A DNA stretch of 37,186 nt from Eubacterium sp. (lineage in GTDB: Bacteria > Bacillota > Clostridia > Lachnospirales > Lachnospiraceae). This document shows, piece by piece, positions 7,747 to 26,962 of the stretch (position 1 is its first letter; every line of letters starts with the position of its first letter). The stretch is from NCBI GenBank assembly GCA_022776205.1, contig JALFIK010000024.1, positions 1 to 37,186 of the forward strand, given 5' to 3'. The translations under genes and the position numbers were made by a program. The notes below the pieces were generated by a model. It saw only the letters and a list, made by a program, of their open reading frames with translations. It ran no database searches and had not been told where the DNA came from.

Positions 7747-8592
7747 ATGAAAAGTAAATTAATGAGAACCACAGTCATTCTGCTTTTTGCTGCCGGCTTA
7801 CTTATTTTTAATTATCCGGTGCTAAGCAGCCTGTATAATCAGATTCAACAGAATAAGCTCATGGATGCTTATGATACCAAGGTAGGTACCATGAGTGAGG
7901 CGGATAAAAAGAAATATCTGAAGGAAGCAGCGATTTATAATAAGAAACTGGCAGAGCAGAGAGTGCAATTATCAGATGCCTTTTCTGAGGAAGGAGAAAA
8001 AAAGGATGCGCGGTATGATAAAGTGCTTGCCATTGATAAAAGTGGTGTGTTGGGAAGCATAGAGATACCGAGGATTTCCCTGTATCTTCCCATTTATCAC
8101 GGAACTTCTTCTGAAGTTCTTGAGAGGGGAATCGGTCATCTGGAGGGGACATCCTTCCCGGTGGGAGGAGAGAATACTCATGCCGTTCTTACGGGACACA
8201 GGGGACTGCCAAGTGCAGAATTATTTTCAAATCTTGATCAGATAAAGAAACAGGATATATTTTATATTCATATTCTGGGAGAAACACTGGCCTATAAGGT
8301 GTTTTCTGTTGAGACGGTTGAACCGTCGCAGACGGATCATCTGGTCGTGGAAAAAGGACAGGATCTTGTTACACTTGTCACCTGTACACCTTACGGTGTA
8401 AATACTCACAGGCTTTTGATTCATGGTTACAGGATCCCTTATAAAGAACCTGCGAAGAAAAATACAGTGAAAGAGAATCTCTGGAAATGGATCTGGAAAC
8501 AGAAGACATTTTTAGTTTCCATCCTCATTGTTCTTTTGGCAGTATTGTTTGAGATGGCACAACTGGTTAAGAAACGCCGAAAAAAAGCTTGA
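7747..8592 (+). CDS. Class C sortase (pilin polymerase type)
   Basis: TLVTCTPYGVNTHRLLIHG catalytic motif, HAVLTGHRGLPSAELFSNLDQI, N-terminal TM and C-terminal TM with basic tail typical of class C. Confidence 0.9.
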   Translation: MKSKLMRTTVILLFAAGLLIFNYPVLSSLYNQIQQNKLMDAYDTKVGTMSEADKKKYLKEAAIYNKKLAEQRVQLSDAFSEEGEKKDARYDKVLAIDKSGVLGSIEIPRISLYLPIYHGTSSEVLERGIGHLEGTSFPVGGENTHAVLTGHRGLPSAELFSNLDQIKKQDIFYIHILGETLAYKVFSVETVEPSQTDHLVVEKGQDLVTLVTCTPYGVNTHRLLIHGYRIPYKEPAKKNTVKENLWKWIWKQKTFLVSILIVLLAVLFEMAQLVKKRRKKA

Positions 8593-8608
8593 AGAAGGAG
8601 GTAAATGA

Positions 8609-10078
8609 ATGAAAAAAATTTTTACGAAATGGAAAGCCTGTTTTCTGGCAATTGCAGCAATCGTATCAATGTTACTCGGGATGATCGTTCCGACCCAGGC
8701 GGAGGAAACCTATGACAAGGATAAAACAGGGAGTATTACCCTCACATTAAATGATCTGGGAACAGATAAAGGCAATGTATCATTTTCCCTTTATCAGGTT
8801 GGAGATCTTGAGGAAAGTAACTCTGTTTCTTTCCGGCTGAAAGATAGTCTTGCCAAAAGTGGAGTGGATCTCCATAAGATCACATCGGCACAGGCCAACG
8901 TGGAGAGTGCAAAGAAACTCGTTCATGTGATTAAGGATGTGGGAATTAAGGCAGATAAAACAGTCGCAACAGACACAGTCGGAGTGGCAGTCTTTCCGAA
9001 TCTGTCTCAGGCCATGTATCTGATTGTTCAGTCAGGTCCTTCTGCTTACGGAACGGTTGATCCGTTTCTTGTGGCGGTTCCTTATATGGAGGATGGAAAG
9101 AATTGGATTTATGATGTGAAGGTTAGTCCGAAAGGACAAAAGAATGAGAGTATTACCCGTTCTCTCACCGTGACAAAGAAGCTGTATTATACAGATTCTA
9201 CGGGAAATACATATAAGATTCAGCCGGCAGATGACAGCTTTTATGTTGGCCTGTTCTGTGATGAGAGCGGAACAATCCCTTATCAGAAGGATTACCTGAA
9301 AAAACTCCATTTTCAGGGAACAAGCAGTGAATCTGCAACTTATGAGAATCTGCCAAAGGGAATTTATTATTTGTATGAGACGGATGAGAAGGGAACACCA
9401 ATTGCTTTTGATCAGAAACAAAATGATAAATTCGGACGACCATTTAAATGCGTCATTGGTGATGGAGACGTTGAAAGTGGAAGTAATCAGATAGAAATGG
9501 ATGTTTCCGGAGAGAAGAGTATTACGCTGAGCAATATTTTTTATAAATTACCGGATCAATACCTCATCGAGGGCGATCTTTCCATTAAGAAGTTAGTGAG
9601 AAAAGACGGAGAAGAGACGACGACCGATGATACATTCTATGCTTCTGTCTATAAGAAAACCAGTGATACGGATTCAGAGCTTGTTACAGTTGTTGAACTG
9701 AAACAAAATGATACAGTTACGGTTCCGGTGCCTCTGGATGAAGGAAAGAAAACGACCTTCATTATTGAGGAGACAGATAAGGACGGCAATGAGCTGGATC
9801 CTGATAATTTTGCATATAAAGTAAGTGGTGAGGGTGAGGTAGTCCTTTCCATGGATCAGACAACAGGATCTATTACATTGAAAAATACCGTTAAGGATAA
9901 GGATGATTCCGAAGAAGAGACAACAGATGATAAAGAGGATACAACAGGTTCAACGAAGAAGTCAAAGTCCGGGAAAACCGGTGACCAGACTCCGATCGGA
10001 ACCTGGATTGCCGTTGCGGTAATCGCGCTGCTTCTGGTAGTCTTTATCGTGATGAGAAAACGTAAAAGTAATAAATAG
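8609..10078 (+). CDS. Pilin-like / Cna-B-containing cell-wall-anchored surface protein
   Basis: N-terminal signal peptide, YDVKVSPK segment, Cna-B-like repeats, C-terminal KSGKTGDQTPIGTW + hydrophobic helix + RKRKSNK. Lies 16 nt after the sortase. Confidence 0.8.
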   Translation: MKKIFTKWKACFLAIAAIVSMLLGMIVPTQAEETYDKDKTGSITLTLNDLGTDKGNVSFSLYQVGDLEESNSVSFRLKDSLAKSGVDLHKITSAQANVESAKKLVHVIKDVGIKADKTVATDTVGVAVFPNLSQAMYLIVQSGPSAYGTVDPFLVAVPYMEDGKNWIYDVKVSPKGQKNESITRSLTVTKKLYYTDSTGNTYKIQPADDSFYVGLFCDESGTIPYQKDYLKKLHFQGTSSESATYENLPKGIYYLYETDEKGTPIAFDQKQNDKFGRPFKCVIGDGDVESGSNQIEMDVSGEKSITLSNIFYKLPDQYLIEGDLSIKKLVRKDGEETTTDDTFYASVYKKTSDTDSELVTVVELKQNDTVTVPVPLDEGKKTTFIIEETDKDGNELDPDNFAYKVSGEGEVVLSMDQTTGSITLKNTVKDKDDSEEETTDDKEDTTGSTKKSKSGKTGDQTPIGTWIAVAVIALLLVVFIVMRKRKSNK

Positions 10079-16908: not shown

Positions 16909-17556
16909 TTATTTATTAATGTCTACGTAACTGTACAGGGTATATTTTGAAATACCGAAGTACTTTGCAACCTTGTCCCCTGATTTTGTTATTAGGAAAG
17001 CACCGGCATCATTTAAGAAGTTAATCGCTTTGATCTTATCTTCCTTTGACATAAGCGGGACGGGAACGCCCACAAGCCGGACAGATTCTTCGATGAGTTC
17101 GTCGAGAAGCTGATTCACATCATGTGTGATCGTTTTCGGTGAGGAATCCGGTTTCTCCTCGTCTCTGTCGTGACAGGCAATCAGGGAGTGAATGCTCGTC
17201 TCAATTGCGAGAAGACTTGTGATGTCATAGTTGATTGACAGAATATACCGGAGCGTTTCCGTCTCATCTTTAATATAGAGGGTACTCGATTTTAAAATTT
17301 TCCCGTTATCGGTTTTGGTCAGGTAGGCCAGCCTGTCTGTAAGAGTACCATGCTTCTCATAATGTTTCAGTGCATTAAGCACTGCTCCGGAAGATCCATC
17401 ACCGGTCTTTCTTCCGGTCACGTGCCCGTTTATGATGTAGACGATGGAATTTTCCGGGGAACGCTCATGAAGATCGTGAATGACGATTTCACAATTTTCT
17501 CCAAACTGGGCTGCCAGCCCGTCTGCTATTTGCCTGAGTATGTCCAGATATGCCAT
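16909..17556 (-). CDS. YheO/DauR-type PAS-HTH transcriptional regulator
   Basis: N-terminal YheO-like PAS (ADGLAAQFGENCEIVIHDLHERSPENSIVYIINGHVTGRKTGDG) and C-terminal HTH (AGAFLITKSGDKVAKYFGISKYTLYSYVD). First gene of the minus arm. Confidence 0.85.
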   Translation of the reverse strand: MAYLDILRQIADGLAAQFGENCEIVIHDLHERSPENSIVYIINGHVTGRKTGDGSSGAVLNALKHYEKHGTLTDRLAYLTKTDNGKILKSSTLYIKDETETLRYILSINYDITSLLAIETSIHSLIACHDRDEEKPDSSPKTITHDVNQLLDELIEESVRLVGVPVPLMSKEDKIKAINFLNDAGAFLITKSGDKVAKYFGISKYTLYSYVDINK

Positions 17557-17587
17557 GATATAACCTCGCTTTCCAGTAACATTGATT

Positions 17588-17631
17588 GGTCTCTCTACAC
17601 ACTACTATAACAGATAAATTTGGAAAATCAA
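17588..17631 (-). promoter_or_regulatory. Candidate promoter of the regulator-ygeXYW-arcC arm with GGTCTCTC motif at about the transcription start
   Basis: Minus strand TTGATT (plus 17626-17631), 16-nt spacer, TATAGT (plus 17604-17609). TTGGTCTCTC at 17586-17595. Confidence 0.5.
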
Positions 17632-17742
17632 GAGAAAAATCAAAAAAAATTTAGTGCAAAAAAATATTTTTTAGAGCAAGGTTCTGTTTTTTCTAATAAA
17701 TTGAAAAAATTATTTTTGTAAAAAAAAATTATTGAAAACCGG

Positions 17743-17771
17743 TTGCATATTGTGGTAAATGATGATAAAAT
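17743..17771 (+). promoter_or_regulatory. Candidate sigma-A promoter (distal) toward permease operon
   Basis: TTGCAT-N17-TAAAAT. Confidence 0.4.
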
Positions 17772-17971
17772 GAGGCCAATGAAAGTCGTATTTAGTAAAA
17801 ATACTAGTTTGATATTTTCTTAAACACTAAAGCATTGTCAGATTGCATGGACGTATAACTTGATATTCGAAGGTTTCAACACCAAAAAAATTTTGGTAAT
17901 GATGAAAAATTTGAAAATTCGTTATAAAGAACTGATAATGTTATATGGAAGATTTTCCTTCTTTTTCCCGG

Positions 17972-17996
17972 TTGGTCTCTCCGGTCTCTCTATAAT
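17972..17996 (+). promoter_or_regulatory. Tandem GGTCTCTC repeats next to TATAAT (proximal promoter of permease operon)
   Basis: TTGGTCTCTC C GGTCTCTC T followed by TATAAT (17991-17996). The repeats occupy the -35 region. Confidence 0.5.
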
Positions 17997-18002
17997 GGGA
18001 GT

Positions 18003-18137
18003 CTTTCATATGACACTTTCATGCAAAAGATATTGGTGAGGCACCATGGGAACGGCCAATAGGTAGAATCTTGTCCCATTGGAGTACCTGGATTTGTAAG
18101 AACGGCAGGTGCACAAACAGAAAAAGGAGAAAGTAAA
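18003..18137 (+). promoter_or_regulatory. Candidate structured 5' leader RNA (possible riboswitch) upstream of permease
   Basis: GCACC(18041-45)/GGTGC(18108-112); ATGGGA(18046-51)/TCCCAT(18074-79); loop AGGTA(18061-65)/TACCT(18085-89) possible pseudoknot; duplicated GAACGGC at 18050 and 18100. Confidence 0.45.
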
Positions 18138-19490
18138 ATGAATAAGGATGAAAAGAACAAGACGACGGTCCTGTCTGATGAGCTTTTTAAGATTGATGGG
18201 AAGCCTTCTTTCGCACAGGCACTTCCTCTGGCACTTCAGCATGTCGTTGCAATGATCGTTGGATGTGTGACACCGGCGATCATCGTGGCCGGAGCCGCAG
18301 GATTGTCGGGGAGTGATTCGGTAATTTTAATTCAGGCGGCACTTGTAATGTCTGCACTCACTACTTTGGTGCAGCTCTTCCCTGTAATCAAAACAAAGAA
18401 GTTTCAAATAGGTTCAGGACTTCCGGTAATCATGGGAATCAGTTTCGCCTATGTTGCCACAATGCAGGCTATTGCGGAGAAGTTCGATATTGCAACGATT
18501 CTCGGAGCGCAGATTGTCGGCGGTGTGGTTGCAATTTTTGTGGGTACATTTATTCGGCAGATCCGAAAGTTTTTTCCGCCTCTGGTTACAGGAACGGTTG
18601 TATTTGCCATCGGACTGTCCCTGTATCCCACGGCGATTAATTACATGGCCGGAGGTGTGGGGAACGAATCCTATGGTTCCTGGCAGAACTGGGTTGTTGC
18701 ATTTATTACATTAACTGTTGTCACTGCCCTGAATCATTATGGAAGGGGATTTTGGAAACTGGCTTCCATTTTGATCGGAATTATTGTAGGATATATTGTG
18801 AGCATATTCTTTGGAATGGTTGATATTTCTCCGGTATTTACTGCATCCTGGTTCCAGCTGCCCCGGCCAATGCATTTTGGTATCCGGTTTGATCCGTCAT
18901 CCTGTGTCGCCATAGGAGTTTTGTTTGCCATTAATTCTATTCAGGCAATCGGCGATTTTTCTGCAACCACGACAGGTGGTCTGGACAGAATGCCAACGAC
19001 CGGTGAATTAAATGGAGGAATCGTTGCCTATGGATGTACGAATATTTTATGTTCCTTTTTCGGAGGACTTCCGACCGCGACCTTCAGTCAGAATGTAGGT
19101 ATCGTTTCTTCGACGAAGGTTGTGGCGAAGAGAGTTTTTGGTATCGCAGCTGTCATTATGCTGGCTGCCGGACTGATTCCAAAATTTTCATCTGCTCTTA
19201 CAACCATTCCATATTGCGTGCTGGGCGGAGCAACCGTATCGGTATTTGCATCGATTGCCATGACGGGTATTAAGCTCATTACATCGAAACCGCTTACCTT
19301 CCGGAATACCTCTATTGTCGGACTGGCAATTGCTCTTGGCATGGGAATTACCCAGGCAAATGCCGCACTGGCAACTTTCCCGGATTGGGTGACAACAATT
19401 TTCGGAAAAACTCCTGTCGTTGTTGCAACGATTACAGCAGTTGTTCTGAATCTGATTCTGCCAAAAGAAAAAACAGAGGAGGAAAAATAA
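18138..19490 (+). CDS. NCS2/NAT family nucleobase permease (xanthine/urate-type)
   Basis: NAT signature TFSQNVGIVSSTKVVAKRV, many TM segments, QAIGDFSATTTGG. Confidence 0.93.
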   Translation: MNKDEKNKTTVLSDELFKIDGKPSFAQALPLALQHVVAMIVGCVTPAIIVAGAAGLSGSDSVILIQAALVMSALTTLVQLFPVIKTKKFQIGSGLPVIMGISFAYVATMQAIAEKFDIATILGAQIVGGVVAIFVGTFIRQIRKFFPPLVTGTVVFAIGLSLYPTAINYMAGGVGNESYGSWQNWVVAFITLTVVTALNHYGRGFWKLASILIGIIVGYIVSIFFGMVDISPVFTASWFQLPRPMHFGIRFDPSSCVAIGVLFAINSIQAIGDFSATTTGGLDRMPTTGELNGGIVAYGCTNILCSFFGGLPTATFSQNVGIVSSTKVVAKRVFGIAAVIMLAAGLIPKFSSALTTIPYCVLGGATVSVFASIAMTGIKLITSKPLTFRNTSIVGLAIALGMGITQANAALATFPDWVTTIFGKTPVVVATITAVVLNLILPKEKTEEEK

Positions 19491-20821
19491 TGTTAGTTGT
19501 AGGAAATGGACGTTTAATCACAAGAAATCCCGCTCTGCCGTTCTTAAAAGATGGTGCTGTTGCCATTAACGGTACGAAAATTGCGAAGATCGGGACAACA
19601 AAAGAATTAAAAGAACAGTATAAAAATGCAGAGTATGTGGATGCAAAGGGCGGAATCATCATGCCGGCCTTTATCAATACTCATGAACATATTTACAGTG
19701 CCATGGCCAGGGGTCTTTGCATAAAAGGATATGATCCGAAGGGCTTCCTTGATATATTAGATGGTCAGTGGTGGACAATCGATCGTCATCTTACCCTGGA
19801 ACAGACGAAATACAGTGCCATGGATACGATGATCTCCTGTATTCGGAATGGCGTGACGACGATTTTCGATCATCATGCGAGTTTTGGACAGATTGACGGA
19901 AGTTTGTTTACCATTGCTGATGTGGCAAAAGAACTGGGAATTCGTGCCTGTCTGTGTTATGAGGTTTCCGACAGGGACGGAATGGACAAGGCAAGAGCAT
20001 CGGTAAAAGAGAATGCAGATTTTATCCATTATGCCTTAAAAGATGACTCGGACATGATTGCCGGAATGATGGGAATGCATGCCCAGTTTACCATTTCCGA
20101 TGAGACAATGGAACTGGCAGCGGCAAATAAACCGGCGGAAGTTGGTTATCACATTCACGTGGCAGAAGGAATTGAGGATCTTTATGACTGCCTGAAAAAA
20201 TATGGAAAGCGTATTGTGGACCGCCTGATGGATTTCGATATTTTAGGAGAGAAAACATTACTTGCCCACTGTATTTACGTAAATTCCCATGAGATGGACG
20301 TTATTAAGGAAACGGGTACCATGGTTGTACATAATCCGGAATCCAATATGGGAAATGCCTGCGGATGTCCTCCGACAATGGAACTGGTGCACAGGGGAAT
20401 TCTTACGGGCCTTGGTACCGATGGATATACCCATGATATGACCGAATCTTATAAAGTGGCGAATGCACTTCATAAACATCATCTCTGTGATCCGAATGCT
20501 GCATGGAGTGAAGTACCACAGATGTTATTTGAAAATAATGCAGCAATTGCAAATCGTTATTTTAAAGCACCTCTTGGGGTGTTAAAAGAAGGGGCGGCCG
20601 CGGATGTGATCGTGATGGATTATGTTTCTCCGACCCCACTTGACGAGACAAATATTAACGGGCATATATTATTTGGTATGACGGGACGGGATGTGGTCAC
20701 GACGATCGCAAACGGAAAAGTCCTGATGAAAGACCGGGAAGTGAAAGTAGCGGATGTGGAAGAAGTCTATGCAAAATGCAGGGAAGAATCTGCGAAGCTG
20801 TGGAAGAGCATTAACGGATAG
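19490..20821 (+). CDS. ssnA: Putative aminohydrolase SsnA (amidohydrolase superfamily)
   Basis: NTHEHIYSAMARGLCIKGYDPKGFLDILDGQWWTIDRHLT, HIHVAEG, HNPESNMGNACGCPP, GLGTDGYTHDM. Start ATG overlaps the permease stop (TAATG). Confidence 0.93.
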   Translation: MLVVGNGRLITRNPALPFLKDGAVAINGTKIAKIGTTKELKEQYKNAEYVDAKGGIIMPAFINTHEHIYSAMARGLCIKGYDPKGFLDILDGQWWTIDRHLTLEQTKYSAMDTMISCIRNGVTTIFDHHASFGQIDGSLFTIADVAKELGIRACLCYEVSDRDGMDKARASVKENADFIHYALKDDSDMIAGMMGMHAQFTISDETMELAAANKPAEVGYHIHVAEGIEDLYDCLKKYGKRIVDRLMDFDILGEKTLLAHCIYVNSHEMDVIKETGTMVVHNPESNMGNACGCPPTMELVHRGILTGLGTDGYTHDMTESYKVANALHKHHLCDPNAAWSEVPQMLFENNAAIANRYFKAPLGVLKEGAAADVIVMDYVSPTPLDETNINGHILFGMTGRDVVTTIANGKVLMKDREVKVADVEEVYAKCREESAKLWKSING

Positions 20822-20833
20822 GAGGAAGAGTGT

Positions 20834-23815
20834 ATGAGTGATATTATGACCTGTATTCCTTTTGAACAGTTGTTACACTGGATTATAGAGGAACATGATA
20901 CGAAAAACACAGTATTTGGCGTGCACAGACCATATGTGGCAGATCCATCAGAAAGTCAGACGATTTTTGGAAGAAAACTGGAGACGCCGATTGGACCGGC
21001 AGCGGGACCAAACAGTCAGCTGGCGCAGAATATCGTTGCATCTTATTATGCCGGAAGCCGTTTCTTCGAACTGAAAACCGTACAGATCATGGATGGTGCG
21101 GAACTTGCTGCCTGTGTAAATAAGCCATGTATTAAGGCGGATGACGAATGTTATAACTGTGAGTGGTCTACAGAATTATATGTACCACAGGCCCAGGATG
21201 AATATATTAAGGCATGGTTTTTGTGTGCTTTTCTGGCAAAGGAATACGGACTGGGCAGTATGGATGGCTACCAGTTTAATATCAGTGTGGGCTATTATCT
21301 GGCAGGAATTAAATCAGAAAAAATTGATACATTTATCGAGAATATGAAAAACGCAGAGAACACAGAGATGTTCAAGGAGTGTAAAGAGGTACTTCTCTCC
21401 CATGTTTCAGAATTCAAGAATATGACAAAAGAAGATATTCTTTCCATTTCTCCGGAGATCTGTAACAGTGCGACAATTTCCACCCTTCACGGCTGTCCGC
21501 CGCAGGAAATTGAGAGTATTGCCAATTATCTGCTGACGGAAAAGAAAATGCATACGTTCATCAAATGCAATCCTACTTTATTAGGATATGATTTTGCCAG
21601 GGAAACTCTCGATAAAATGGGTTACGATTATGTAGCTTTTGGAAAGTTTCATTTTGAAGACGACCTCCAGTATGAGGATGCGGTTCCAATGCTCACACGT
21701 CTTATGAAACTGGCATCAGACAGGAATCTGGAATTTGGTGTAAAAATAACAAATACCTTCCCGGTTGATGTGAAGGCAGGAGAACTTCCGAGTGAGGAAA
21801 TGTATATGTCCGGGAAGTCCCTTTATCCGTTATCCATTTCCCTGGCGGCAAAACTGTCGGAAGAGTTTGACGGAAAACTGCGAATCTCCTATTCGGGCGG
21901 TGCCGATGCTTTTAATATTGGGAAAATTATCGGAGCCGGAGTATGGCCGGTCACGGTGGCAACGACAATCTTAAAGCCGGGTGGATATCAAAGATTAAAA
22001 CAGATGGCAGAAATTATCGATGCCCAGGGCAAAGTTCCATTTACCGGCATTGATGTGTCTGCGATAAAACAGGTGGCAGAAGATGCCGTTACAGACAGAC
22101 ATCACGTAAAACCGGCGAAACTTCCGGGTTCAAGAAAATCCGCAGAAAAAGTTCCGTTACTCGACTGCTATACGGCACCTTGTCAGGATGCCTGTCCAAT
22201 TCACCAGGAAATTCCGACGTATGTGAAATTGGCAGGAGAAGGAAAATATGAAGAAGCATTGCAGGTTATTTTAAACAGAAATGCACTTCCATTTATTACC
22301 GGTACAATTTGTGCCCATGGATGCCAGAGCCACTGTACCCGTAATTTCTATGAAAGTGATGTGAAAATCCGGGATACAAAACTTCTTTGTGCAAATAAAG
22401 CATACGAGAAAGTAATTGATACGATAAAACCGGCACCTTCCTGTGGTAAAAAAGCAGCCATTGTCGGAGGTGGTCCTGCAGGAATGGCAGCAGCTTATTA
22501 TCTTGCAAAACTTGGTGTTGCGGTAACGATTTATGAGAAGAGAGATCGCCTTGGAGGAATTGTGAGTGCGGTGATTCCGGATTTCAGAATTGATGACAGT
22601 GTCATCGAGAAGGATGCTTCATTCCTTGCAAAGCTTGGTGTTCAGGTTATATATAATAAAGAAGTCACATCGATTGAAAAACTGAGACAGGAAAACGATG
22701 CGGTTATTCTTGCAGTAGGTGCTTACAAACGGGGCCGTCTATCCTTAGAGGGAAAGGAAGCAGTCAATGCTCTTGACTTTCTGGAAGATTTTAATAAGGC
22801 AGGCGGAAAACTGACACCCGGAAAGAATGTGGTTGTAATCGGCGGCGGAAATACGGCGATGGATACGGCAAGAGCAGCAAAACGCGCTGAAGGGGTAGAA
22901 CATGTTTATCTTGTATATCGCCGTACAAAACGTTATATGCCGGCGGATGAGCATGAACTGGAACTTGCCATTGCAGATGGGGTGGAATTTAAGGAGCTTC
23001 TTGCACCGGTTAAGGTGGAAGATGGAAAGCTGATCTGTAATGAGATGAAACTTGGTGCCATGGATGCATCCGGAAGAGCCGGTGTCGTTTCGACAGGAAA
23101 ACAGGCGAGTGTGCCGGCGGATTTTGTGATCGCAGCAGTAGGAGAAAAGGTGCCGGGTGAATTTTACGAAGCAAACGGTATTCATGTGGATGAAAAAGGG
23201 CGGGCTCTTGTCGATTCCAATTTACAGACCGGTCTGGAAAATGTCTATGTAATCGGTGATGGCCTTTACGGTCCGTCTCTGGTAGTAACAGCCATGGGTG
23301 AGGCGATTAAAGTGGCAGAGGCAATTACAGGCAAACCGGTAAGTGAAAGTATGAGTAAACCGGCTGCAGCAGAAGAATGTTACGGAAAGAAAGGAATTTT
23401 AGCGGAAAGTTCCGATAAGCCGGAAGCGGGAAGATGCCTGGGCTGCTCAAGTGTCTGTGAAAATTGTGTGGATGTGTGTCCGAACCGGGCGAACATTTCC
23501 ATTAAAGTGCCGGGAATGGAAAAAGCCCAGATTATTCATGTGGATTATATGTGTAATGAATGTGGAAACTGTAAGAGCTTTTGTCCGTATGACAGTGCTC
23601 CGTATCTGGATAAATTTACATTATTTGCCAATGAAAAAGATATGGCGGACAGTAAAAATCAGGGATTTACGGTTCTTGATAAGGAGACAGTAAGATGCAG
23701 GGTGCGTCTTTTTGGTAATGAATTTGAGTGGACGAAGGGAGAGACCGGTAAACTTCCATTTGGCCTTGCAAATCTGATCGAAACAGTTTGCAGAGATTAT
23801 TCTTATCTTCTGTAA
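20834..23815 (+). CDS. ygfK: YgfK-type putative selenate reductase subunit (flavin/Fe-S oxidoreductase)
   Basis: N-terminal dihydroorotate-dehydrogenase-like region, central GltD-like CYTAPCQDACPIHQEIPTYV + GGGPAGMAAAYYLAKLG, C-terminal CNECGNCKSFCPYD; 993 aa. Confidence 0.93.
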   Translation: MSDIMTCIPFEQLLHWIIEEHDTKNTVFGVHRPYVADPSESQTIFGRKLETPIGPAAGPNSQLAQNIVASYYAGSRFFELKTVQIMDGAELAACVNKPCIKADDECYNCEWSTELYVPQAQDEYIKAWFLCAFLAKEYGLGSMDGYQFNISVGYYLAGIKSEKIDTFIENMKNAENTEMFKECKEVLLSHVSEFKNMTKEDILSISPEICNSATISTLHGCPPQEIESIANYLLTEKKMHTFIKCNPTLLGYDFARETLDKMGYDYVAFGKFHFEDDLQYEDAVPMLTRLMKLASDRNLEFGVKITNTFPVDVKAGELPSEEMYMSGKSLYPLSISLAAKLSEEFDGKLRISYSGGADAFNIGKIIGAGVWPVTVATTILKPGGYQRLKQMAEIIDAQGKVPFTGIDVSAIKQVAEDAVTDRHHVKPAKLPGSRKSAEKVPLLDCYTAPCQDACPIHQEIPTYVKLAGEGKYEEALQVILNRNALPFITGTICAHGCQSHCTRNFYESDVKIRDTKLLCANKAYEKVIDTIKPAPSCGKKAAIVGGGPAGMAAAYYLAKLGVAVTIYEKRDRLGGIVSAVIPDFRIDDSVIEKDASFLAKLGVQVIYNKEVTSIEKLRQENDAVILAVGAYKRGRLSLEGKEAVNALDFLEDFNKAGGKLTPGKNVVVIGGGNTAMDTARAAKRAEGVEHVYLVYRRTKRYMPADEHELELAIADGVEFKELLAPVKVEDGKLICNEMKLGAMDASGRAGVVSTGKQASVPADFVIAAVGEKVPGEFYEANGIHVDEKGRALVDSNLQTGLENVYVIGDGLYGPSLVVTAMGEAIKVAEAITGKPVSESMSKPAAAEECYGKKGILAESSDKPEAGRCLGCSSVCENCVDVCPNRANISIKVPGMEKAQIIHVDYMCNECGNCKSFCPYDSAPYLDKFTLFANEKDMADSKNQGFTVLDKETVRCRVRLFGNEFEWTKGETGKLPFGLANLIETVCRDYSYLL

Positions 23816-23818
23816 TCC

Positions 23819-23867
23819 CTGCAGAAAGAAAGCAATCAGTAAAAAGTCGGAGAATTGCTTTGTGCAG
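23819..23867 (+). other. Intercistronic hairpin between ygfK and the xanthine dehydrogenase gene
   Basis: CTGCA...AAAGCAAT...ATTGCTTT.TGCAG; 5 + 8 bp stems, no T-run afterwards. Confidence 0.5.
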
Positions 23868-23899
23868 TAAATAATCCGGCATGAAATGGGGGAAACACT

Positions 23900-26482
23900 A
23901 TGTATACACTCAATATAAACGGACAGGAAGTAAAGACGGAGAAGAAACAGTCTCTCCTTCGCTTTTTAAGGGATGAGATGCATCTTACTTCGGTAAAAGA
24001 CGGATGTAGTCAGGGTGCATGCGGTGCGTGTACAGTGATTATTGATGGACAGACCGTAAAGGCTTGTGTTCCGACGACAGATAAACTGGAAGGGAAGAAA
24101 ATTATTACTGTGGAAGGCCTCAGTGAATGGGAGGCGAAGGTATATACCTATGCTTACGGGGAAGCGGGTGCTGTCCAGTGTGGATTCTGTATCCCCGGCA
24201 TGGTCATGTGTACGAAAGCTCTTCTTGATAAAAATCCGGATCCGACGGAAGAAGAAATCAGATATGCTTTGCGGAATAATTATTGCCGTTGTACTGGTTA
24301 TGTGAAAATCATTGCCGCGGTGAAAATTGCTGCCGAAATCCGCCGGACCGGAGTGATTCCCGAAAAAGGGGACGATGACTGGAAAATCGGCTCCCGCGTG
24401 CACAGGATCGATGTGGAAGAAAAAGTACTCGGCTACGGAAAATATCCGGATGATTATTACATGGATGATATGTGCTATGGAGCTGTACTCCGGAGTAAAT
24501 ATCCAAGGGCCAGAGTCCTTTCCATTGATACTTCGGCAGCAAAGGAACTGCCGGGTGTGATTGATGTTTTTACCGCGGAGGATATTCCGGGAGAAAATAT
24601 GATCGGTCATTTAAAACACGACCAGTACACGATGGTGCCGGTGGGAAGTCTTACCCATTATCTCGGAGATGCCATTGCCCTGATTGCGGCAAGGGACATG
24701 GAAACTGCGGTGAAGGCAAAAAATAAAATTAAGGTGGAATATGAAGTTCTGCCTGCCGTTCACAACATTAAAGAAGCGGCGGCGGAGAATGCACCTCTTG
24801 TTTTTGAGGAGGATACTTCAAATGTACAAGCCCACAAATTTGTGAGCAGAGGGAATGCCACAGAGGCAATTGCCGGAGCAAAACATGTGATTACAAAACA
24901 TTTTGAAACACCATGGACCGAACATGCCTTTCTGGAACCGGAAGCAGTGGTATCATACATGGATGAAGATGGATATGTGAGAATCATTTCTACGGATCAG
25001 TCTGCCTACTGCACCATGAATGAGTGCTGCCGTGTTCTTGGTACGGATAAAGTCCGGGTTCAAAATGGTCTTGTCGGAGGCGGTTTTGGAGGGAAGGAAG
25101 ATATGACGGTGCAGCCTTATGCCGCGCTGATTACATATCTTACAGGACTTCCGTGTAAAGTTCGCCTCACGAGGGAGGAATCCCTTCTTGTACATCCGAA
25201 ACGCCATCATTTTGAGATGGATTTTACCATGGGATGTGATGAGAATGGAAAAATCATGGGAGTAAAAGCGAAAGTGGTTTCGGATACCGGTGCCTATGCT
25301 TCCCTTGGCGGACCGGTTCTTGAAAGGGCATGCACCCATGCGGCAGGCCCTTATGCTTATGAAAATTTTGAAATTGAGGGGGATGCATATTATACCAATA
25401 ATCCACCGGCGGGAGCCTTTCGTGGTTTTGGAGTGACCCAGACCTGTTTTGCCACAGAGACCCTTCTTAACATGATGGCAGATGAAATTGGAATTTCTCC
25501 GTGGGAAATCCGGTATCGAAATGCCATTCGTCCGGGCGGGGTTCTTCCAAACGGTCAGATTGTGGATGAGTCCACGGGGCTGGTAGAAACGCTTGAAGCT
25601 GTGAAAGAAGAATATGATGCGGCGGTTGCTGCCGGGAAACCGGTCGGCATTGCCTGTGCCATGAAAAATGCCGGTGTCGGCGTGGGAATTCCGGATTGGG
25701 GCCGGGTAAAACTGATTGTGGAAGAAGATAAGAAGCTCCATATTTATTCCGGAGCGTCCTGTATCGGCCAGGGGTTAGGAACGGTTCTTGTACAGATGGT
25801 TGTGACGAATACAGATTTAAAACGGGAGGATATTGTTTACGAGCGGAGTAATACATGGATTGCACCGGATTCGGGAACGACTTCCGGCTCCCGGCAGACA
25901 CTCATTACCGGGGAAGCCTGTCGACGGGCCTGCGAGAAACTTATGGAAGAAAAGAAAGATGGAAAGACGTTGGAAGACCTCATTGGACAGGAATTTTATG
26001 GGGATTACCTGGCAAAGACCGATCCTCTGGGAGCCGATGTACCAAATCCCGTTTCTCATGTGGCTTACGGATATGCGACACAGATGTGCATCCTAGATAA
26101 ACAGACCGGGAAAATTGAAAAAATTGTGGCAGCTCATGATGTAGGTAAGGCTGTAAATCCACTATCCTGCGAAGGACAGATTGAAGGTGGTGTTGTCATG
26201 TCCATGGGATATGCCTTAAGGGAACGGTATCCGATTGATGAGGATTGTAAGCCAATTGGAAAATATGGGGCTCTCGGCCTGTTTAGGGCAAACGAAGTTC
26301 CTGAGATTTGCCCAATTGTCATTGATAAACCGGGTCTTAAGGTAGCCTGCGGAGCGATTGGAATTGGAGAAATCACATCGATTCCGACGGCACCTGCTAT
26401 TACGGACGCATATTATCGGTGGGATGGGGAGAGACGATATTCTCTTCCAATCTCCGGCACTCCATATGAAAGGAAAAAATAA
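23900..26482 (+). CDS. Fused [2Fe-2S]-molybdopterin hydroxylase (selenium-dependent xanthine dehydrogenase-like, XdhD type)
   Basis: N-terminal CSQGACGACTV...CGFCIPGMVM...NNYCRCTGY fused to MoCo domains (GGGFGGKEDM, PAGAFRGFGVTQ, GQGLGTVLVQM, GAIGIGE). No FAD domain in the ORF. Confidence 0.92.
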   Translation: MYTLNINGQEVKTEKKQSLLRFLRDEMHLTSVKDGCSQGACGACTVIIDGQTVKACVPTTDKLEGKKIITVEGLSEWEAKVYTYAYGEAGAVQCGFCIPGMVMCTKALLDKNPDPTEEEIRYALRNNYCRCTGYVKIIAAVKIAAEIRRTGVIPEKGDDDWKIGSRVHRIDVEEKVLGYGKYPDDYYMDDMCYGAVLRSKYPRARVLSIDTSAAKELPGVIDVFTAEDIPGENMIGHLKHDQYTMVPVGSLTHYLGDAIALIAARDMETAVKAKNKIKVEYEVLPAVHNIKEAAAENAPLVFEEDTSNVQAHKFVSRGNATEAIAGAKHVITKHFETPWTEHAFLEPEAVVSYMDEDGYVRIISTDQSAYCTMNECCRVLGTDKVRVQNGLVGGGFGGKEDMTVQPYAALITYLTGLPCKVRLTREESLLVHPKRHHFEMDFTMGCDENGKIMGVKAKVVSDTGAYASLGGPVLERACTHAAGPYAYENFEIEGDAYYTNNPPAGAFRGFGVTQTCFATETLLNMMADEIGISPWEIRYRNAIRPGGVLPNGQIVDESTGLVETLEAVKEEYDAAVAAGKPVGIACAMKNAGVGVGIPDWGRVKLIVEEDKKLHIYSGASCIGQGLGTVLVQMVVTNTDLKREDIVYERSNTWIAPDSGTTSGSRQTLITGEACRRACEKLMEEKKDGKTLEDLIGQEFYGDYLAKTDPLGADVPNPVSHVAYGYATQMCILDKQTGKIEKIVAAHDVGKAVNPLSCEGQIEGGVVMSMGYALRERYPIDEDCKPIGKYGALGLFRANEVPEICPIVIDKPGLKVACGAIGIGEITSIPTAPAITDAYYRWDGERRYSLPISGTPYERKK

Positions 26483-26485
26483 GGT

Positions 26486-26962
26486 ATGGCATTTCAGAAA
26501 AAATTTCCTTACCGTTCCGCTTATGTTGCCTGTCAGGGCACCTGCCGGGATGGGCAGCAGCAGTGTGAATACGGATGTATCGGCTGTGAAAAATGTGTGG
26601 AAAACTGCAGATTCGATGCGATTTCCATTGGAGAAGGGGGAGTCGCCGTTATTGATTCGGAAACATGTATCGCCTGCGGAAAATGTGTCAGAGTTTGTCC
26701 ACAGCAGATTATTCATATCCATGAATGTGGTAATTTTATCGTTGTAAAATGTTCGAATAAAGAAAAAGGGAAAGCAGCAAAAGATGTCTGTTCCTCAAGT
26801 TGTATTGGCTGTGGAATGTGTGAAAAAACCTGTACTGCCCAGGCAGTCCGGGTGATTGAAAACTGTGCTGTTATCCGGGAGGACGAATGCTTAAGCTGTG
26901 GCATGTGCGTGGTCAAATGTCCACGGAATGCCATTGTGGATACGAGAGGAATTATTTATTAA
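26486..26962 (+). CDS. Cys-rich multi-[4Fe-4S] ferredoxin (RnfB-like Fe-S domains)
   Basis: CIGCEKCVENCRFDA, CIACGKCVRVCPQQ, CIGCGMCEKTCTAQA, CLSCGMCVVKCPRNA. Starts 3 nt after the preceding CDS. Confidence 0.9.
   Translation: MAFQKKFPYRSAYVACQGTCRDGQQQCEYGCIGCEKCVENCRFDAISIGEGGVAVIDSETCIACGKCVRVCPQQIIHIHECGNFIVVKCSNKEKGKAAKDVCSSSCIGCGMCEKTCTAQAVRVIENCAVIREDECLSCGMCVVKCPRNAIVDTRGIIY

Follow-up and report, generated by a model that had tools for sequence, protein, structure and literature searches.

The window, by which we mean the whole stretch of 37,186 nt analysed here, carries a set of genes that, judged by its content, is an anaerobic urate/purine gene cluster (coordinates refer to the forward strand unless stated otherwise). 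An NCS2 xanthine/urate permease (18138–19490; PF00860, E=5e-80; TIGR00801 above cutoff) is followed by ssnA, ygfK, a selenium-dependent xanthine dehydrogenase and a ferredoxin-type protein (19487–26962; TIGR03314, TIGR03315 and TIGR03311 above cutoffs). A first-pass annotation of this DNA had placed a structured leader in front of this permease operon. Divergently, on the reverse strand, lies a regulator gene (16909–17556) with a YheO-like PAS_6 domain (PF08348, E=1e-34) and an HTH_22 domain (PF13309, E=6e-20). Beyond it, profile searches found diaminopropionate ammonia-lyase, YgeY, YgeW and carbamate kinase. This gene content matches the cluster ygeX-ygeY-ygeW-yqeA, ssnA, ygfK and xdh described for the anaerobic breakdown of urate (PMC12507026); a term search of that paper gave no discussion of a riboswitch or a regulator. 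Elsewhere in the window, at 7747–10078, a sortase-like gene precedes one for a pilin-like surface protein whose C-terminus has a sorting-type signal, according to a reading of the translations by eye.

The regulator shares its domain content, PAS_6 plus HTH_22, with the YheO/DauR-type regulators, and autoregulation via adjacent operators is plausible for it as for them; unlike these, it is tied to a urate/xanthine gene cluster. Orthologs with 66–76% identity occur in divergent loci of five other genera (g58, g263, g86, g323 and g77), all with the divergent arrangement kept. These loci (L-numbers for loci, g-numbers for genera, W for the window) became the basis of the comparison, in which leader elements common to the window and up to four other genera were found. 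A search for orthologous leaders by DNA similarity within the genus found none, and away from the few closest loci the leaders of permease homologs are unrelated and useless for alignment. In g86 (L054, L055, L084) the regulator faces ssnA and not the permease: the leader with its conserved hairpin directly precedes ssnA, and the permease gene is not adjacent to it. In L052 the permease appears truncated, its N-terminal part and start missing from the divergent strand about 470–700 nt from the regulator start.

The permease operon has its promoter at a conserved position. The sequence TTGCAT-17-TAAAAT (17743–17771) aligns with TTGCA(T/A/C)-17-TANNNT in L016, L050, L052, L054, L055, L084 and L045, and with TTGCTT-17-TATCAT in L064. 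Transcription is expected to start near 17778, which implies a leader of approximately 360 nt. The first-pass annotation had assumed a leader of about 135 nt (18003–18137) behind a TATAAT box. This box is indeed present at 17991–17996, about 220 nt downstream of the conserved promoter, but the promoter scan found no acceptable -35 element for it and the relatives share 17743–17771 instead; neither this promoter nor the proposed boundaries are supported. For the regulator the scan gives TTGATT-16-TATAGT (17604–17631, reverse strand), with a similar layout in L052–L055 and L057. Another promoter-like match, TTGAAA-17-GATAAT at 17911–17939 (10 of 12), scores well, overlaps the 3' arm of the stem P1 described below and could be a second start site; it was not found in the relatives compared. 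The search for intrinsic terminators in the leader gave just one weak 5-bp candidate (17986–18001).

Both ends of the intergenic region carry copies of TTGGTCTCYC. Copy A, TTGGTCTCTCT (17586–17596; AGAGAGACCAA on the regulator strand), is located just past the regulator's -10 element. Its position is kept in L016, L050, L045–47, L053 and L064, while g86 has the variant CTGTCTCCCT and L052 the core GTCTCCCT. Copies B (TTGGTCTCTC) and C (CGGTCTCTCTA) are located within the leader (17972–17992), with counterparts in L016, L045–47, L053 and L064. They overlap the TATAAT just mentioned, and the sequences TTGGTCTCTC/CGGTCTCTC at this spot have the appearance of DNA operators that serve the regulator next door. 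The orientation of the copies is opposite relative to the two transcripts, which is explained most simply by a DNA site. The two sites also change together: g86 has CTGTCTCCCT at both, and L115 lacks both. In L050 the regulator-side copy is kept and the leader copy is gone. Across the genome to which the window belongs, TKGGTCTCYCYR is matched three times: twice in this region and once within a reading frame of glycosyltransferase type. Thus, the motif is found at both promoters, is co-changing and is rare elsewhere in the genome, as one would ask of an operator. The PAS-HTH regulator is its likely binder; we infer this from the position of the gene, which makes it the obvious candidate. No description of a TTGGTCTCYC operator was found in the literature searched.

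One may go further and regard all the conserved elements, TTTGTNRAA..ACGA, TTGCATGGA, GGTCTCYC and CCATGGGAACGG, as DNA to which the PAS-HTH regulator or some other factor binds, in which case the leader RNA would be functionless and its complementarity incidental. GGTCTCYC does behave like a DNA element, several of the others are short fixed words, and the covariation is thin. Furthermore, the operon is retained in L050 and g263, whose leaders lack such elements; that of L050, from the same genus as L016, is only about 80 nt long, stops just past TTGCA and is without the leader operator copy and the later elements. Two observations on the RNA speak against this reading and make it, in our view, rather unlikely, though it deserves to be taken seriously. 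One is the architecture around GCATGGA described below. The other is that folding exceeds chance expectation where the elements are present: the 360-nt leader of the window reaches z -3.27 against dinucleotide shuffles, L052 reaches -2.5, g86 -2.0 to -2.6 and L016 and L064 about -1.2. The leaders of g263, which have no such elements, are at +0.8 to +1.2.

The most upstream of these elements, TTTGTNRAANNTRYACGA, is found near the transcription start. It is clear in L016, L050, L052, L054, L055, L064 and L115 and aligns with a diverged, degenerate copy in the window (17790–17808). RNAalifold finds only a weak helix in it (-1.4 kcal/mol).

The second element is part of a larger domain (domain 1, 17831–17942) predicted from base pairing. 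Its stem P1, formed by AGCAUUGUCAG (17831–41) and CUGAUAAUGUU (17932–42), has a 9-bp core with pair probabilities of 0.99–1.0 in the window and closes a loop with a conserved GCAUGGA. In the window the element reads TTGCATGGA (17843–17851) and is predicted to lie in an asymmetric bulge or internal loop. The motif (T/C)TGCATGG is found in W, L016, L052, L054, L055, L084 and L064, with the recurring consensus (T/C)TGCATGG(A/T). A bulge between two stems has an ensemble frequency of 0.44 in W, 0.78 in L054, 0.05 in L084 and 0.16 in L064; in each case 0–1 of 60 shuffles get there, and for the window none of 60. This recurrence of one unusual bulge in the ensembles of W, g86 and L064 is the observation that argues against a purely DNA-based reading of GCATGGA. 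L016, L052 and L055 gave no such ensemble signal; there the same arrangement can be drawn but costs 3.8, 7.2 and 7.8 kcal/mol above the best fold, respectively, and a stricter permutation test of stem energy supports domain 1 in g86 and L016 only; W, L052 and L064 are not significant. The stems closing the bulge differ by lineage: CAUUGUCAG/CUGAUAAUG in W, GCCAAAUU/AAUUUCAGGC in L016, UUCGGUU/AACCGAA in L054, GCCGG/CCGGC in L052 and UAUUGUCG/CGACAAUA in L064. As these were chosen by eye in knowledge of the target, they are suggestive. The leader of L016 has four copies of GCATGG (approximately 1285–1451), and it is uncertain which of them matches the element of the other lineages.

The third recurring element, GGCRCCATGGGANNGGCY, belongs to domain 2 (18031–18061), a candidate stem TATTGGT/GCCAATA around the loop GAGGCACCATGGGAACG, examined with a covariance model (R1) and a flank test. 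The conserved loop sequence, GGCACCATGGGAACGGCC at 18040–18057, is seen in the alignment of W, L016, L052, L054, L055 and L084. Around the shared GGCRCCATGGGANNGGC the arms are complementary in different ways: UAUUGGU/GCCAAUA in W, GAUGCCGGU/GCCGGUAUC in L052, CCGGC/GCCGG in L016 and UCGGC/GCUGA in L055. Shuffling of the flanks gave p values of 0.014 for W, 0.0025 for L052, 0.13 for L016 and 0.2–0.4 for g86, and the Fisher combination over these four lineages, with g86 entered once at 0.2, gives p of about 5e-4. Among the six sequences two pairs show double changes, which is not clearly above shuffles. In the window itself this stem has a predicted probability of 0, as a downstream UCCCAUUGG pairs with the loop instead; this partner was not found in the relatives. 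When R1 was run on 397 genomes of the family, five loci scored 40.8–55.8 bits and the next best match 26; among 392 genomes of the class the window alone exceeded 25 bits. As the model was built from the matched loci, these scores arise partly by construction, and it is the gap to the remainder that is informative. With one or a few genomes sampled per genus, the search bounds the spread of the element and is not exhaustive.

Since the conserved loop contains ATG GGA NNG GCY, preceded by a weak purine-rich sequence, a short upstream frame that opens with the ATG in GCCATGGGA (MGTA, MGPA or MGKA) might couple translation to the operon. In L016 this frame stops beside the permease start. However, the peptides share just four residues and stop at differing distances, the conserved bases reach upstream of the ATG, and the flanks are complementary; hence such a coupling is very improbable. 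A peptide reading of the loop in whichever frame (APWERP or MGTA) was also rejected, as no frame is conserved past a few residues.

In the light of these relatives the fold first proposed for 18003–18137 can be judged. This was a possible translational purine riboswitch with an outer stem GCACC (18041–45)/GGTGC (18108–112), an inner stem ATGGGA (18046–51)/TCCCAT (18074–79) and a pseudoknot AGGTA (18061–65)/TACCT (18085–89). Competing pairings were ACCTG (18086–90)/CAGGT (18106–110) and TATTGG/CCAATA, and a repeated GAACGGC was noted at 18050 and 18100. All listed strings are present, and the complementarity is mildly enriched: 18003–18137 holds 11 perfect Watson-Crick helices, each 5 bp or longer, where shuffled sequences give 5.0 +/- 2.2 (p=0.02). 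The stability of the 135 nt is no better than that of shuffled sequences (-27.8 vs -26.6 +/- 3.7 kcal/mol, z -0.34). Computed within the longer leader, the outer stem has a pairing probability of 0; the inner stem reaches approximately 0.3–0.7 in the window, but its TCCCAT arm was not found in the aligned relatives. The pseudoknot helix has a probability of 0 as a nested helix, under an algorithm which cannot form a true pseudoknot. ACCTG/CAGGT, listed as an alternative, is predicted to form with a probability of approximately 1.0 and extends to GUACCUG/CAGGUGC. As to TATTGG/CCAATA, a stem at this spot is common to the relatives, though not predicted in the window. A reading of the single sequence had thus picked the wrong helices, the stem shared by the relatives having been listed as a competitor. 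Together with the promoter being elsewhere, this leaves the 135-nt switch hardly credible. The proposed structured regulatory leader is supported in part, by the conserved elements, by the significant folding of the leader in its full length and by the lack of an Rfam family; no support was found for its promoter, its boundaries, its outer stem and, as a nested helix, its pseudoknot, and the inner stem is seen in the window only.

Over the ribosome-binding site the window shows a prediction of its own. The Shine-Dalgarno region of the permease, GAAAAAGGAG (18120–18129), would pair with CTTCTTTTTC (17958–17967) in a 10-bp helix CUUCUUUUUC/GAAAAAGGAG with a probability of 0.62–0.76, and the Shine-Dalgarno sequence is unpaired with 0.16 compared to 0.61 in shuffles (0/40). 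This partner is specific to the window. Burial of the ribosome-binding site as a shared switch was considered and discarded, as it is not seen in most relatives.

Comparison with known classes yielded no assignment. Neither the region 17557–18140 nor the relatives matched any Rfam family, at gathering or at relaxed (E<=2) thresholds. The only hits near the leader were of eukaryotic snoRNA or miRNA type and are due to chance. The earlier view that this does not look like an xpt-type purine riboswitch agrees with the Rfam scan: the purine/xanthine-II covariance model was unmatched in 17557–18140 and in the relatives, and no three-way junction was seen. What the purine (guanine) riboswitch and the xanthine-II variants of it have in common with the leader is control of purine genes, with xanthine dehydrogenase among the neighbours of xanthine-II (PMC9295807). 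The NMT1 motif or xanthine-I riboswitch resembles the leader in being an RNA before purine-oxidation genes whose conserved bases lie in bulges flanked by two stems. It has been reported from Proteobacteria only (PMC7373994), its model matched neither the window nor the relatives, and the conserved bases and architecture differ. No 'ssnA' RNA motif was found in the literature searched.

A metabolite riboswitch acting on translation through the modules of the longer leader, with xanthine, urate or a molybdenum/selenium cofactor related compound as ligand, would suit the purine operon context, the conserved bulge and loop and the ribosome-site burial predicted in the window. Set against this are a very narrow distribution over a single operon type, the lack of an Rfam match, burial that is not conserved and the presence of a protein regulator, and we regard it as improbable. 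A bolder version, which we rate a little lower still, sees here a lineage-restricted new class of riboswitch: the GCAUGGA bulge would combine with the CCAUGGGA hairpin loop into a pocket that binds xanthine, urate or a molybdenum/selenium cofactor, and the switch would control urate breakdown jointly with the PAS-HTH repressor; 5'-CAUGG-3' of the bulge and 5'-CCAUG-3' of the loop are complementary and could kiss. Nothing points to the purine or urate ligand suggested initially beyond the downstream genes; metabolite sensing by the leader is possible and at present unsupported.

The reading we favour, with about an even chance of being right, is that the region is a transcribed leader of approximately 360 nt of a purine/urate catabolic operon with two layers of control, DNA operators and RNA modules. 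The divergent PAS-HTH regulator would bind TTGGTCTCYC at its own start site and inside the leader, thereby repressing itself and blocking or modulating the operon until released by a signal, either purine-related or redox. In the folded leader there would be two conserved, lineage-restricted modules: GCAUGGA bulged out between two stems, and a hairpin with the loop GGCRCCAUGGGANNGGC. These probably tune translation of the first gene or stability of the RNA, and in this genome the predicted fold would bury the ribosome-binding site of the permease. Conservation, the position of the promoter, the paired copies of the motif and their joint change are observed; that the modules act as RNA, and in which direction control runs, we infer, and the comparison covers only four to five independent lineages.

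Summarizing, our verdict is that a selenium/molybdenum urate operon has here a leader which is lineage-restricted, operator-controlled and probably structured, and plausibly a candidate new regulatory RNA found in few related genera. Anaerobic breakdown of urate by gut bacteria bears on gout and on human urate levels, and its control has been little described. If our reading is true, it would provide a regulator and its operator as a pair open to testing, and besides these a candidate leader RNA, for switching the urate pathway on and off.
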